From: Bacillota bacterium
Lineage (GTDB): Bacteria; Bacillota; Sulfobacillia; Sulfobacillales; JAIMBI01
Assembly (NCBI GenBank): GCA_021820465.1
Contig: JAKADP010000007.1
Span: 1-56,172, forward strand
DNA length: 56,172 bases
Direction: 5' to 3'
The notes beneath the pieces were generated by a model. It was not told the origin of the DNA. It saw only the letters and a program-made list of their open reading frames with translations, and did not search any database. The position numbers and the translations under genes were made by a program. Shown one piece after another: positions 12,941 through 18,978 of this stretch (positions are counted from its first letter, which is position 1; each line of letters begins with the position of its first letter).

Positions 12941-14383
12941 ATGATGAATCCGAGCGTGCGGCTGTCCGCCTTCCTGACCCAATACCCTGCCTACGGGGCG
13001 GCGGCGGTGTTGGACGACATCCGACGCGATGAGTACCCCCAGCTGGCGGCCGAGGGGCTCACGTATCTGGACTACACGGGGGCCGGGCTCGCCAGTGTCC
13101 GTCAGCTCGACGAGCATTTTGCGTGGCTCACCGCCGAGGTGCACGGCAATCCCCACTCGCCCAACCGCCCGTCTCTAAAATCCACCGAGGCCCTGGCCCG
13201 GGCACGGGAAGACGTCTTAGCCTTCTTCCATGCGGACCCCGAAGAATATGTGGTGGTGTTCACACAAAACGCGACGGGCGCGCTGCATCTGCTGGGCGAA
13301 TCCTTCCCCTTCACGCCCGATGCCCAGCTGCTGCTGACGGCGGACAACCACAATTCGGTGCTGGGGCTCCGCGAATTTGCCCGCCATGGGCAGACGCCCG
13401 TGGCCTACCTGCCGATGATCAAAGGGGACCTGCGCGCCGATGACGCGACGTGGCGCCACCTGCTGGCCACCCCGTCCACAGGCGGGGCCCGCTTGTTCGC
13501 CTATCCGGCGCAGTCAAACTTTTCGGGCGTCCGGCATGACCTAGAGTGGGTGGCCGTGGCCCAGGGATACGGCTGGCGCGTTTTGCTGGACGCCGCCGCC
13601 TGGGTGCCGACGATGCCCCTCGATCTGTCGGCCGTCCATCCCGACTTCGTCCCGCTGTCGTTTTACAAAATGTTTGGCTATCCCACCGGGGTGGGCTGTC
13701 TCATCGCTCGCCGGGAGGCGATGGAGCAGCTGTCCCGCCCCTGGTTTTCCGGCGGGACGGTGCTGGCATCGTCCTTGGCCGCCGATCAGGCGGCCATGCT
13801 GCCGGCACCGGCGGGATTCGAAGACGGGACGCCCGACTTCCTGAACATTCCCGCCGTCAGCATCGGGCTTAGGCACCTCGGCCGCCTAGACCTCGACCGC
13901 ATTCACGACCGCACGGCGGCGCTGCTGGCGTGGGTCCTGGGCGAGCTGCAGACCCTGCACCACCACAACGGCCGTCCCGTCATTCAAGTGCTGGGGCCGC
14001 GCGAGCCTCACGCGCACGGCCCCACGGTAGCGTTTCGGGTATTGGACCCCAATGGGATGGCGCAGGATGAGCGGCTCGTCATCGAAGAGGCCAATGATGC
14101 TGGCATCGTCCTGCGCTCGGGCTGCTTCTGCAACCCCGGAGCCGGCGAAGCCGCCCTGGGATTTGCGGCCGACCGCCTGAGCCAGGCCTTCCAGCACGCC
14201 GGGGCGTGGCACTCGATCGACGAACTGGTTGAGTGGATGGAGATTCCGACCTTGGGCGTAGTGCGGCTGTCGATGGGCGCCATGAGCAATTTCGCCGATG
14301 TGGAGGCCGCCGCCGCATTTCTCGGCACGTTCACGGACCGACCAGTGGTGCAGCGGGCTTTTGCGGCCCGGGCGGGCTGCTGA
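12941..14383 (+). CDS. Class V aminotransferase, molybdenum-cofactor-sulfurase-like
   Basis: The 480-residue PLP enzyme resembles the NifS-like domain of Moco sulfurases more than IscS/SufS. It has YLDYTGAGL at the start, HGNPHSPN, VVVFTQNATGAL, a substrate/PLP region with LLDAAAW, the Schiff-base lysine in LSFYKMFGYPTGVG, and late LRSGCFCNPGAGE with adjacent cysteines typical of MOCS proteins. MOCS enzymes add the terminal sulfur ligand to the Mo cofactor of xanthine-oxidase-family enzymes. A CoxSLM-type hydroxylase lies at 23.4-27.2 kb, so a link is plausible but inferred. The MOSC domain found in eukaryotic MOCS is absent. The ATG at 12941 (or 12944) follows AGGGGG. Confidence 0.8.
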   Translation: MMNPSVRLSAFLTQYPAYGAAAVLDDIRRDEYPQLAAEGLTYLDYTGAGLASVRQLDEHFAWLTAEVHGNPHSPNRPSLKSTEALARAREDVLAFFHADPEEYVVVFTQNATGALHLLGESFPFTPDAQLLLTADNHNSVLGLREFARHGQTPVAYLPMIKGDLRADDATWRHLLATPSTGGARLFAYPAQSNFSGVRHDLEWVAVAQGYGWRVLLDAAAWVPTMPLDLSAVHPDFVPLSFYKMFGYPTGVGCLIARREAMEQLSRPWFSGGTVLASSLAADQAAMLPAPAGFEDGTPDFLNIPAVSIGLRHLGRLDLDRIHDRTAALLAWVLGELQTLHHHNGRPVIQVLGPREPHAHGPTVAFRVLDPNGMAQDERLVIEEANDAGIVLRSGCFCNPGAGEAALGFAADRLSQAFQHAGAWHSIDELVEWMEIPTLGVVRLSMGAMSNFADVEAAAAFLGTFTDRPVVQRAFAARAGC

Positions 14384-15680: not shown

Positions 15681-16817
15681 CTACGTCGGCGTGACCGATC
15701 CCTTGGGGCCCGAATCTGGCGTGCTCCCCCGCGCCAGCATGACTGCCACCAGCACAGCCGGTGCCGGCACGGCGAACAGCACCCGTGTGAGCCCCAGCAC
15801 GTCGCGGGCGCCCACCAGCATCACGGCCACCAGCAGCAGGCCGACCGCCCGCGACCCATTGAGGGCCAGCTCCTTGCTGGCCGTGGCCCGGTGATGGTGG
15901 TGCGTGTGCCCAATCACGTCGAGGCTCCACGCCTCGAGCGGCACTTTCTGCAGCGGGATGGCCAGCCCCACGGCAGCGCCAAAGCCCCACAGGCTCACGG
16001 GCAGGGGCAGCCCGGCCAGCAGCGCACTGGCGGCCGCGACCAACCCAGCGCCCATCCAAGCGAGGCGCGGACGTGCGCGGGGGCTCTGCGCGCGCCCCGC
16101 CCAATGATTCCCCACCAGGGCCATCGCCGCGACAAGGCTGGCAAATGCCCCCACCTGCACAGCAGACCCGGTGGTCTCAAACATCAGGAGCCCGGGCACC
16201 ACCACCAGGATCCCCTCATAGGCGCCACGCGCTGCCATGCCGGCTATGAGAGGCCGCCAGCCGGGCCCCATCGCCTCCCGGGGGGCGGCGCGCGGCGCGT
16301 GCACCCCCACGGCGCGCGTCAATAGCCACGAAGGCACCAGTCCCGCCACCGACACCGCAAACACTGTCACAAAGCCACCGGCCCACCGGATGAGCGCAGC
16401 GCCAGCCAGCGGCCCTATCAGGCTGGCCGCCGCCTCGGCCGTGCCCACCGTCCCATTGAACCGATCCCGGTCGCGGTCCCGTGTGTCACCCAGCGCGGCC
16501 ACGTACAAGCCCAGCCAGTACGACCCGTACCCCAAGCCGGCCACCATGCCCAAGAGGTCCACCCACGGCGCCACGGCGTGGCCGAGACCGGCAATGCTCA
16601 CCAAGAACAGCACCATGAGCGCAATGCCCCAGCGCATGAAGCGGCGCGGCGGCCACGGGAGCCACCGGGCGCCGAAAAACACGCCGGCCATCGCGACAAA
16701 CTGCAGGCCGGCAAACACCAGCAGCTGGGCTGGCTCTACCCGCTCGAGCCATAAAAACGGCACCACAAAGGCGTCGGACACGGACAGGGCCACACTGACA
16801 GACAGTGTGGCCCACAC
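15681..16817 (-). CDS. Major facilitator superfamily transporter
   Basis: The 378-residue product is almost entirely hydrophobic, with about 10-12 predicted membrane segments (for example FAGLQFVAMAGVFFGA and GIALMVLFLVSIAGLGHA). It has two halves separated by a basic loop around VHAPRAAPREAMGP. A cytoplasmic-type loop near residue 310 carries HTHHHH, possibly metal-binding. The substrate is unknown. The GTG at 16817 lies 21 nt downstream of the selenoprotein stop with no separate ribosome site, so it is probably coupled to that operon. The context suggests a sulfur compound or thiol as cargo, but this is only inference. Confidence 0.75.
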   Translation of the reverse strand: MWATLSVSVALSVSDAFVVPFLWLERVEPAQLLVFAGLQFVAMAGVFFGARWLPWPPRRFMRWGIALMVLFLVSIAGLGHAVAPWVDLLGMVAGLGYGSYWLGLYVAALGDTRDRDRDRFNGTVGTAEAAASLIGPLAGAALIRWAGGFVTVFAVSVAGLVPSWLLTRAVGVHAPRAAPREAMGPGWRPLIAGMAARGAYEGILVVVPGLLMFETTGSAVQVGAFASLVAAMALVGNHWAGRAQSPRARPRLAWMGAGLVAAASALLAGLPLPVSLWGFGAAVGLAIPLQKVPLEAWSLDVIGHTHHHHRATASKELALNGSRAVGLLLVAVMLVGARDVLGLTRVLFAVPAPAVLVAVMLARGSTPDSGPKGSVTPT

Positions 16818-16837: not shown

Positions 16838-17488
16838 TCAGCTAGCCGCCACCTGACGAATCTTCTCCAGCAGGGCGCCCTCAGGCACCGCCCCGACTAC
16901 CTGCTCCTCGCCGTTCACCAGCGTCATCGGCACGCCCATGACGCGGAACCGCTGGGACAGCCGCATAAAGCTCTGCGCATCCACCATGTCGGCCGTAACG
17001 TGCTCCGGGTTGACCCGGGCCATCTGCTGAGCCAGGCGAACTGCCTGGGGGCAGTAGGGTCAAGTGGGGGTAACAAATACCTCCAGGTGAAGCGGCCGCG
17101 TTAACTGCGACAGGTAGTCCCGCGCCGCCGCGCTCAGCTCCGGGGGTGTGTCGGTGGACAAATCTCGCAGGGTCTGCAGCATGGGGCCAAATTCGTGGCC
17201 GCCCGGGAAGCCCAGATACCGGATGCCCGTGTCGTCCCCATCCACACTGAATGTCGTAACGACACTCTCCAGGTCGTCCGCCGTCTCCGGAGCTAGGGGC
17301 TCGGGACGCTCGGCCTTCACCGCCACCACCACCTTGGGATTGATGGCGCTCAAGTCGCGCCACAGCTCTTCCACGGCGTCGGAGGCCGGGTTTCCCGCCA
17401 CGGCGTGGACATGGACCGTCACCGGCTTGTCCAACCCGTCCAGAAACTGCTGCACCTCTGCCTTCACATCATCGGTCATCAAGCTCAT
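16838..17488 (-). CDS. Protein disulfide oxidoreductase with an in-frame TGA, predicted selenoprotein (UPYC)
   Basis: This is one frame of 217 codons interrupted only by TGA at 17060-17062 (codon 143). The N-terminal thioredoxin-fold half lacks CxxC but has the family's DGDDTGIRYLGFPGGHEFGP. The second half reads LEVFVTPT-TGA-PYCPQAVRLA, then ADMVDAQSF, VMGVPMTLVNG and VVGAVPEGALLEKI, all typical of PDO/glutaredoxin-like two-domain oxidoreductases whose motif is TPTCPYCP. TGA thus replaces the first, nucleophilic Cys. A SECIS-like hairpin follows. Automatic annotation would give a truncated 142-residue protein and a spurious second ORF. The ATG at 17488 follows GGGGGAGAAGGAG. The alternatives, nonsense mutation or base-call error, are less likely given the precise position and hairpin. 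Confidence 0.82.
17024..17054 (-). promoter_or_regulatory. Bacterial SECIS-like hairpin after the TGA codon
   Basis: On the minus strand CCAGGC-AGTTC-GCCTGG forms a perfect 6-bp stem with a 5-nt loop. An outer CTGC/GCAG helix extends it across an internal loop. The apical loop begins 17 nt after the TGA and has G among its first two bases. This meets the published bacterial SECIS criteria (16-37 nt to the loop, G at loop position 1 or 2). SelB would bind here. Confidence 0.72.
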
Positions 17489-17521: not shown

Positions 17522-18145
17522 CTACCCCACCGGCGCGGTCGGATGCCGGCCCGCCAGCCACAGCGCCATGCCGCCGCGCACGTTGGCCACCTGGTAGCCC
17601 CGGTCTGCCAAAAATGCCGCGGCCGCCTGCGAGCGGTTGCCGTGCGCACACACCAAGGCGTAGCGCCCGTTCGCCTCCAGCGCGCCCGCGCGGTCGGGCA
17701 GCTGGTTCAAGGGAATGGTTCGGGCACCGGGAATCACTCCGGACCGCCATTCGTACGGCTCGCGCACATCAATCACGGTCCACTCGCTCAATTCTCTCGC
17801 CAACTGGTCCGCGGTAATGTCCGGCACAGACACCAGACGGAGACCCTGAGCCTGCCACGCCTCGGCCCCGCCGTCCAGCACAGAGACGGACGCCACGCCC
17901 GCCTCTTGCAATGCGCGCTGCGCCGCCGCTCCCACCACCGCGTTGTCCGCCAGCACGGTCACGGGGATGGCGCCTTGGCGGTCGATCCAGCTCTTCACCG
18001 GCGCCGCCCAGCCGTGCTGGGCGTACGGCGCCGACAGACTGTGGGCGACGTGTCCCCGCGTATAGGCGGCGCCGGGCCGCACGTCCAGCAAGAGCCGGCG
18101 GCCGGCGGCTGCCTCGCTCATCAGTTCCTCACCGGTGCCCGTCAT
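17522..18145 (-). CDS. Tandem-rhodanese sulfurtransferase
   Basis: The 207-residue protein has two rhodanese-like domains. The first (LLLDVRPGAAYTRGHV) has VLADNAVVG where the active-site loop should be and no cysteine, so it is inactive or structural. The second (VIDVREPYEWRSGVIPGARTIPL) has the full persulfide-forming loop CAHGNRS. Such proteins transfer sulfane sulfur between thiols, cyanide or enzyme persulfides. The ATG overlaps the stop of the metallo-hydrolase gene (ATGA) and follows GGGAGG, and the gene lies 33 nt before the selenoprotein. The order resembles CstB-like persulfide systems, with domains on separate proteins. Confidence 0.87.
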   Translation of the reverse strand: MTGTGEELMSEAAAGRRLLLDVRPGAAYTRGHVAHSLSAPYAQHGWAAPVKSWIDRQGAIPVTVLADNAVVGAAAQRALQEAGVASVSVLDGGAEAWQAQGLRLVSVPDITADQLARELSEWTVIDVREPYEWRSGVIPGARTIPLNQLPDRAGALEANGRYALVCAHGNRSQAAAAFLADRGYQVANVRGGMALWLAGRHPTAPVG

Positions 18146-18978
18146 GGAGTCACGCCTCCCTTTACCCCTCCCGATTGGAGCCAGGGCGCCATCAGCGGCG
18201 CCGGCGCGGCCGCGTCGGCGGCCGGCGGCTTGGCCGCCCCGAGATTGACTTGGCGCAGGCGCTCCGCGTCGGGCGGCGGCGGCTTCAGGAGTGCCAGCTG
18301 CTGGTCTACAAACGCGGTCGGCTCCTCCAACATCAGCATGCGGTTGAAGCGCCGCTCGTAACCCACCGTCGAGCTGGGCTTCTTGCTCATGAACAGGCCG
18401 CCGCACGGCGACGATCCATAGTGCGCCGGGTGCACCTCCGTGAAGTCCGGCAGGCTGAGAAACCGCCGCACACTGTGAAACTGGTCCAGCGCGGCCGCCC
18501 GGATCTCCTCCGGGTCGGCGTCGCCTAGGTCAGGCCGCCCCACATCGCCCACAAACAGGCTGTCGCCGGTTAGGACGACCCAGGGGTCGTCGCCGCGCAG
18601 CGTATCGCGCACCACGAGCGAGATGCTGTCGGGCGTGTGGCCGGGGGTTTCCCAAACCGTCACGCCCACAGAGCCCCACCGAATCTCATCGCCGTCCCGC
18701 ACCGGAGCTGTGGGAAACGCCGCCGCGGCCCGATGGCTCAGCGTGACCGGCACATTCACCGCTGCCGCCAGCTCCTGGGCCGCCGACGCGTGATCCGCAT
18801 GCACGTGTGTCTCCACCACCCACCGAATGGCGAGGCCGGCCTCCTGGGCTGCCAGCACGTAGGCTTCGGCGCCCACCGCTCCCAAGGCATCCACCACCAT
18901 GGCGCTGCCCTCTAGGTCGTCGCCCAGGAGGTACGAGCTACACCCCAGCGTGGGGTCGCGCAACACTTGCCAAAACAT
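18142..18978 (-). CDS. ETHE1-like persulfide dioxygenase (metallo-beta-lactamase fold)
   Basis: Enzymes of this family oxidise glutathione, CoA or other low-molecular-weight persulfides to sulfite using a mononuclear iron. The 278-residue product has the metal motif THVHADHAS (H58, H60, D62, H63), the PGHTPDSISLV histidine, LTGDSLFVGDVGRPDL and the HPAHYGSS histidine. GDVGRPDL is characteristic of ETHE1/BlrB types. The ATG at 18978 is preceded by GGGGGTGA; upstream in-frame codons lack conservation. The adjacent tandem rhodanese supports persulfide chemistry. The thiol substrate is unknown; in a Bacillota it could be bacillithiol or CoA. Confidence 0.85.
   Translation of the reverse strand: MFWQVLRDPTLGCSSYLLGDDLEGSAMVVDALGAVGAEAYVLAAQEAGLAIRWVVETHVHADHASAAQELAAAVNVPVTLSHRAAAAFPTAPVRDGDEIRWGSVGVTVWETPGHTPDSISLVVRDTLRGDDPWVVLTGDSLFVGDVGRPDLGDADPEEIRAAALDQFHSVRRFLSLPDFTEVHPAHYGSSPCGGLFMSKKPSSTVGYERRFNRMLMLEEPTAFVDQQLALLKPPPPDAERLRQVNLGAAKPPAADAAAPAPLMAPWLQSGGVKGGVTP

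Follow-up and report, generated by a model that had tools for sequence, protein, structure and literature searches.

A selenoprotein family named 'homolog of AhpF, amino-terminal domain' was reported with two members, from Carboxydothermus hydrogenoformans and Symbiobacterium thermophilum (PMC1794560, Zhang and co-workers, 2006), and later reviews give the AhpF-N-terminal-homolog family together with the model TIGR02187 and a UxxC motif (PMC9312934, PMC13188914). Selenocysteine (Sec) is also used in Sulfobacillus, where it is found in a formate dehydrogenase (PMC4378227) and in the S. thermotolerans peroxiredoxin PrxU, which has been seen in the proteome (PMC7409299).

Here we describe a gene from a relative of Sulfobacillus which, judging from comparative sequence, very probably encodes a selenoprotein with Sec at codon 143. 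The gene, referred to below as Sec-PDO, lies in a stretch of 56,172 nucleotides (the window) from a Bacillota draft assembly (GCA_021820465.1; Table 1). An earlier note on this DNA considered a Sec-containing two-domain protein disulfide oxidoreductase (PDO) beside persulfide enzymes to be unusual, but Sec-containing two-domain PDOs belong to a catalogued selenoprotein family that was reported in 2006 (PMC1794560, PMC9312934, PMC13188914). Sec-PDO is therefore an added member of a known family, in a lineage already using Sec. It documents a widespread, little-described selenoprotein in Sulfobacillus relatives, for which cultured species are available for testing.

Table 1. Features of the Sec-PDO locus, in window coordinates.
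Feature	Position	Strand	Description
Sec-PDO gene	16838–17488	minus	216 residues, predicted Sec at position 143, stop TGA 16838–16840; PDO/AhpF-N-terminal-domain homologue
Internal UGA, predicted Sec codon	17060–17062	minus	at the nucleophile of UPYC in domain 2
Candidate bSECIS stem-loop, CCAGGC-AGTTC-GCCTGG	17032–17048	minus	stem begins 11 nt 3' of the UGA; assessed by synonymous shuffling and comparison with Cys genes
Tandem rhodanese	17522–18145	minus	first domain without catalytic Cys, second with CAHGNRS loop
MBL-fold persulfide dioxygenase-like protein	18142–18978	minus	start uncertain; best solved match 3TP9, also ETHE1
MFS-type transporter	15681–16817	minus	next downstream; operon membership uncertain

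The gene, its family and its fold

Translation of the region agrees with the earlier note in giving a single minus-strand frame, which opens with an ATG, ends with a TGA and has the TGA at codon 143 as its sole interruption. A ribosome-binding-like stretch, GGGGGAGAAGGAG, is found 5' of the ATG. The sequence around the interruption reads TPT-U-PYCPQAVRLA, and homologues with Cys align with that residue at the UGA codon, which places the TGA at the first redox Cys as had been claimed. The note also expected standard pipelines to annotate a truncated protein. This holds for any pipeline that takes UGA solely as a stop, since the product without read-through has 142 residues, but the NCBI model PDO_seleno_TRX (TIGR02187) knows the family, although Sec-PDO scores below its naming cut-off.

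Residues 6–212 of Sec-PDO match positions 2–208 of the TIGR02187 profile with an E-value of 7.8e-51. The score is 172.4 bits against an NCBI cut-off of 185, which limits automatic naming rather than homology, and UGA-containing relatives fall on either side of it (171.6, 183.0, 183.5 and 205.6), with one Cys relative reaching 267. The second-domain UxxC/CxxC motif is present as UPYC at 143–146, and Pfam assigns a thioredoxin-type domain that spans the UGA. The match to TIGR03140, considered in the comparison with AhpF, covers no more than the first 200 of its 515 positions.

When the read-through protein was modelled with Cys in place of Sec, two thioredoxin folds were predicted (pLDDT 96.4), and the model superimposed on P. 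furiosus PDO 1A8L with a Z score of 29.4 over 207 residues. Among solved structures, the Pyrococcus and Aquifex PDOs are closest in both sequence and fold, and AhpF comes next. The family match, the closest solved sequences and the fold comparison thus all bear out the PDO assignment made earlier. What stands of the two-domain claim is the pair of tandem thioredoxin folds; classical archaeal-type PDOs carry CXXC in both domains, whereas domain 1 of Sec-PDO contains no Cys. The sole active site is U143-P-Y-C146 in the second domain, while domain 1 retains its fold and has lost its CXXC. The AhpF N-terminal domain likewise has a known active site only in its second fold.

Among the homologues, a domain-1 CXXC is present in 62 of 77 Cys forms and in 11 of 68 UGA forms, and absent from the other 15 and 57, respectively. 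These raw counts fit a tie between domain-2 Sec and loss of the domain-1 CXXC, but we rejected it: the tree offers too few independent contrasts to demonstrate such a tie, and the CXXC persists in 11 UGA forms. These eleven, all from the same class, combine Sec in domain 2 with an intact domain-1 motif, so the two traits are separable.

Neighbouring genes and a candidate partner

The genes directly upstream of Sec-PDO, on the same strand, are those for the MBL-fold protein and the tandem rhodanese, and the start codon of the rhodanese overlaps the stop of the MBL gene (ATGA). The best match of the former, 3TP9, is a beta-lactamase-rhodanese protein, with ETHE1-type dioxygenases also matched, and for the tandem rhodanese the matches include the rhodanese portion of 3TP9. 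The pair looks like CstB divided between two genes. MBL-rhodanese-PDO order is found at 10 of 30 loci and spans several genera and families, and one of the two genes stands beside the PDO gene at 4 more of the 30; in other genomes the PDO gene is elsewhere, near sigK and sufB. The MFS-type transporter gene adjoins Sec-PDO only in same-genus genomes. The window also encodes a class-V aminotransferase of the cysteine-desulfurase type (12941–14383, plus strand), and this gene is also retained in the neighbourhood in a genome of the same genus (L050).

Sulfobacillus is an acidophilic sulfur oxidiser, and the gene order suggests that selenocysteine use is connected with persulfide metabolism. In the mechanism that we propose, UGA codon 143 would be decoded as Sec via SelB, tRNA-Sec and the downstream stem-loop to give the full-length protein of 216 residues, about 23 kDa in mass. 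For the substrate, the reductant and the direction of electron flow, we infer the following: Sec143 would most likely attack a sulfur of a disulfide, persulfide or polysulfide, the Cys146 thiol would then resolve the selenenyl-sulfide, and a thioredoxin-reductase-type enzyme would probably recharge Sec-PDO. A thioredoxin reductase is encoded in the source genome. The partner may be the adjoining persulfide dioxygenase-like and rhodanese pair, so that Sec-PDO would act in sulfane-sulfur handling in Sulfobacillus relatives. Judged from gene order, we regard this pairing as a possibility that at best approaches an even chance.

Alternatively, Sec-PDO could be a selenoprotein that serves as a general disulfide or peroxiredoxin reductase, an AhpF-like electron carrier; this differs from the proposal above in the partner only. 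Such a role would fit the similarity to the AhpF N-terminal domain, the many homologues located away from MBL and rhodanese genes, and the fact that S. thermotolerans makes the Sec peroxiredoxin PrxU (PMC7409299), but it sits less well with an order of MBL and rhodanese genes that is conserved in several genera and families. We consider it a serious possibility, though a little short of even. In the fuller version of the persulfide proposal, which is put forward tentatively, Sec-PDO would be dedicated to a split persulfide dioxygenase-rhodanese system as its partner, Sec would carry out the chemistry on persulfides or polysulfides, and domain 1 would act purely as a structural element or as a docking site. 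A literature search, with most subscription journals outside its scope, found no paper on a link between PDO_seleno_TRX and persulfide enzymes.

Decoding of the UGA codon

The source genome, a 2.88-Mb draft of 165 contigs that is 96% complete, encodes tRNA-Sec (67.8 bits, anticodon UCA), SelA (507.9 bits), SelB (338.9 bits) and SelD (351 bits), and all four genes, selA, selB, selC and selD, score above curated cut-offs. The earlier note had staked its reading on the presence of selB and selC, and both are found. The machinery genes sit on other contigs of the draft, and their attribution to the host depends on correct binning. SelD is itself a selenoprotein with an active-site Sec in KSGUGCK (L019:1465-2454, G000:C127), which is a known arrangement. 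The same genome probably encodes one more selenoprotein, a thioredoxin with the motif WUPHC, in which an in-frame TGA occupies the position of the first active-site Cys (L003:1501-1820; G000:C5:1591-1878).

A class-wide search found relatives in 100 of 154 genomes of the same class, a tally that includes paralogues. Because it mixes the PDO_seleno_TRX family with paralogues, we counted UGA and Cys forms from individually read sequences. At the 30 best class loci, the window's own included, the aligned codon is UGA in 27 and TGC in 3. A further 60 class loci were added to the comparison, and a scan of 84,980 species genomes contributed 80 named loci, partly overlapping genomes already in the class set; the wider homologue set holds 68 UGA and 77 Cys forms. 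UGA forms in the scan come from Bacillota-type metagenome genomes and from the cultured Sulfobacillus harzensis DSM 109850 and S. thermotolerans Kr1, and the complete genome of S. thermotolerans carries the UGA form. TGC or TGT is found in Chloroflexota, Aminicenantes, Cloacimonadota, Thermoplasmata, Asgard and other relatives. One class genome (G129) has the variant motif UPRC with UGA.

On a tree of 145 sequences, built by a quick method, UGA and Cys forms are interleaved, and the two states are far more clustered than in shuffles. The tree needs 16 Sec/Cys changes, 7 of which are forced by well-supported branches, which argues that Sec and Cys were exchanged several times. A diverged paralogue with CPYC or CPPC in place of UPYC, and otherwise a weak match to the family, occurs in the source genome and in relatives (L002, G000:C150:15717-16175; L174; L175). 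Among the matches listed in a plasmid search, AhpF was the only kind of relative, with an identity of about 26%.

The hairpin described in the earlier note, CCAGGC-AGTTC-GCCTGG, is present with its loop 17 nt from the TGA, but its stem begins at 11 nt rather than 8. The G at loop position 2, which had been counted in its favour, is there as well; it opens a conserved Val codon, and a G at loop position 1 or 2 occurs in 77 of 77 Cys homologues. Being fixed by the Val codon and present in all of the Cys genes, it provides no independent evidence for a SECIS. Taken alone, the window hairpin is modest evidence: its fold has a z score of −2.28, with 5 of 200 shuffles equally good, and the window peptide encoded with random synonymous codons forms 6 of 6 pairs by chance in 17% of cases, so the window by itself could not have settled the question. 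An Rfam search gave no SECIS-type match at this site, and the five matches that it returned were all far below threshold.

Comparison across the homologues separates the two forms. Of the 68 UGA genes, 59 form every pair of the 6-bp stem, whereas synonymous shuffling of the same peptides predicts 4.9 and never exceeds 15. The 68 genes share descent and cannot be counted as independent trials, and shuffling controls for peptide, not ancestry, but on the tree the UGA and Cys forms are interleaved. In the Cys genes the stem is fully paired in 2 of 77, against 0.9 expected. With the peptide fixed at P[RQ]AVRLA, full pairing is found in 51 of 54 UGA genes versus 1 of 10 Cys genes. The stem is thus kept in UGA forms and lost in Cys forms, the comparison by which we checked the proposed hairpin. 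Codon usage in the first set (34 UGA and 66 Cys genes) differs accordingly at two positions: for the Pro that follows the motif, 32 of 34 UGA genes use CCC and Cys genes favour CCG, and for the Arg, CGG is used by 22 of 22 UGA genes and CGC is favoured in Cys genes. A few UGA genes show two-sided changes that preserve pairing (CCATGC/GCATGG, CCGTGC/GCACGG and CAGCGC/GCGTTG). Conservation of both UGA and hairpin in the 68 genes is far beyond chance, and these patterns indicate that the predicted bSECIS stem-loop 3' of the UGA is under selection.

Downstream of the UGA, dN/dS in same-genus gene pairs is about 0.05–0.12, which points to strong purifying selection on the segment 3' of this codon. 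These observations bear on whether the UGA is a true stop, arising from a nonsense mutation or in a pseudogene, or stands for a TGC or TGT misread in sequencing or assembly. A 142-residue product would hold the whole first domain, and the source assembly is a draft of 165 contigs; however, genomes from many genera, assembled separately and some of them complete, have UGA at the identical codon, and the hairpin is retained only in UGA forms. A truncated reading cannot explain the conserved UGA, the selection on the hairpin and the low dN/dS, and we consider a stop or an error extremely improbable. Decoding as Trp, Gly or Cys through an altered genetic code or a suppressor, for which the open frame speaks and nothing further, is equally implausible, given that the gene itself terminates in TGA, that tRNA-Sec, SelA, SelB and SelD are all encoded, and that homologues carry Cys, not Trp or Gly, at the UGA position. 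The comparative data show a conserved UGA, a SECIS stem-loop under selection, the decoding machinery, the predicted fold and the gene order, and they support the decoding of the UGA as an amino acid that stands in for Cys.

Comparison with known systems

Sec-PDO shares both tandem thioredoxin folds with the PDOs of Pyrococcus furiosus (1A8L) and Aquifex aeolicus (2AYT, 2YWM), with Z scores of 27–29 over about 206 residues. The second-domain CPYC of these proteins aligns with UPYC, and Sec takes the place of their first active-site Cys. With the AhpF N-terminal domain (1ZYN, 4O5Q) it has the two-fold architecture in common (Z 25–26) at a lower sequence identity of 22%; unlike AhpF, it has no fused flavoprotein reductase, since the frame ends after the second thioredoxin domain, and it has Sec.

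The selenoproteins of TIGR02187 (ABB15282.1; Grx-like domain protein) belong to the same NCBIfam family and have the same UxxC motif with Sec first, whereas the window gene differs from them in its lineage (a genus of the order that includes Sulfobacillus), its sub-cut-off score and its order with persulfide genes. Finally, the neighbours of Sec-PDO follow CstB and 3TP9 in having the MBL domain, a rhodanese domain without Cys and a rhodanese domain with Cys in the same order, but here two overlapping genes share these domains between them, and the Sec-PDO gene follows.
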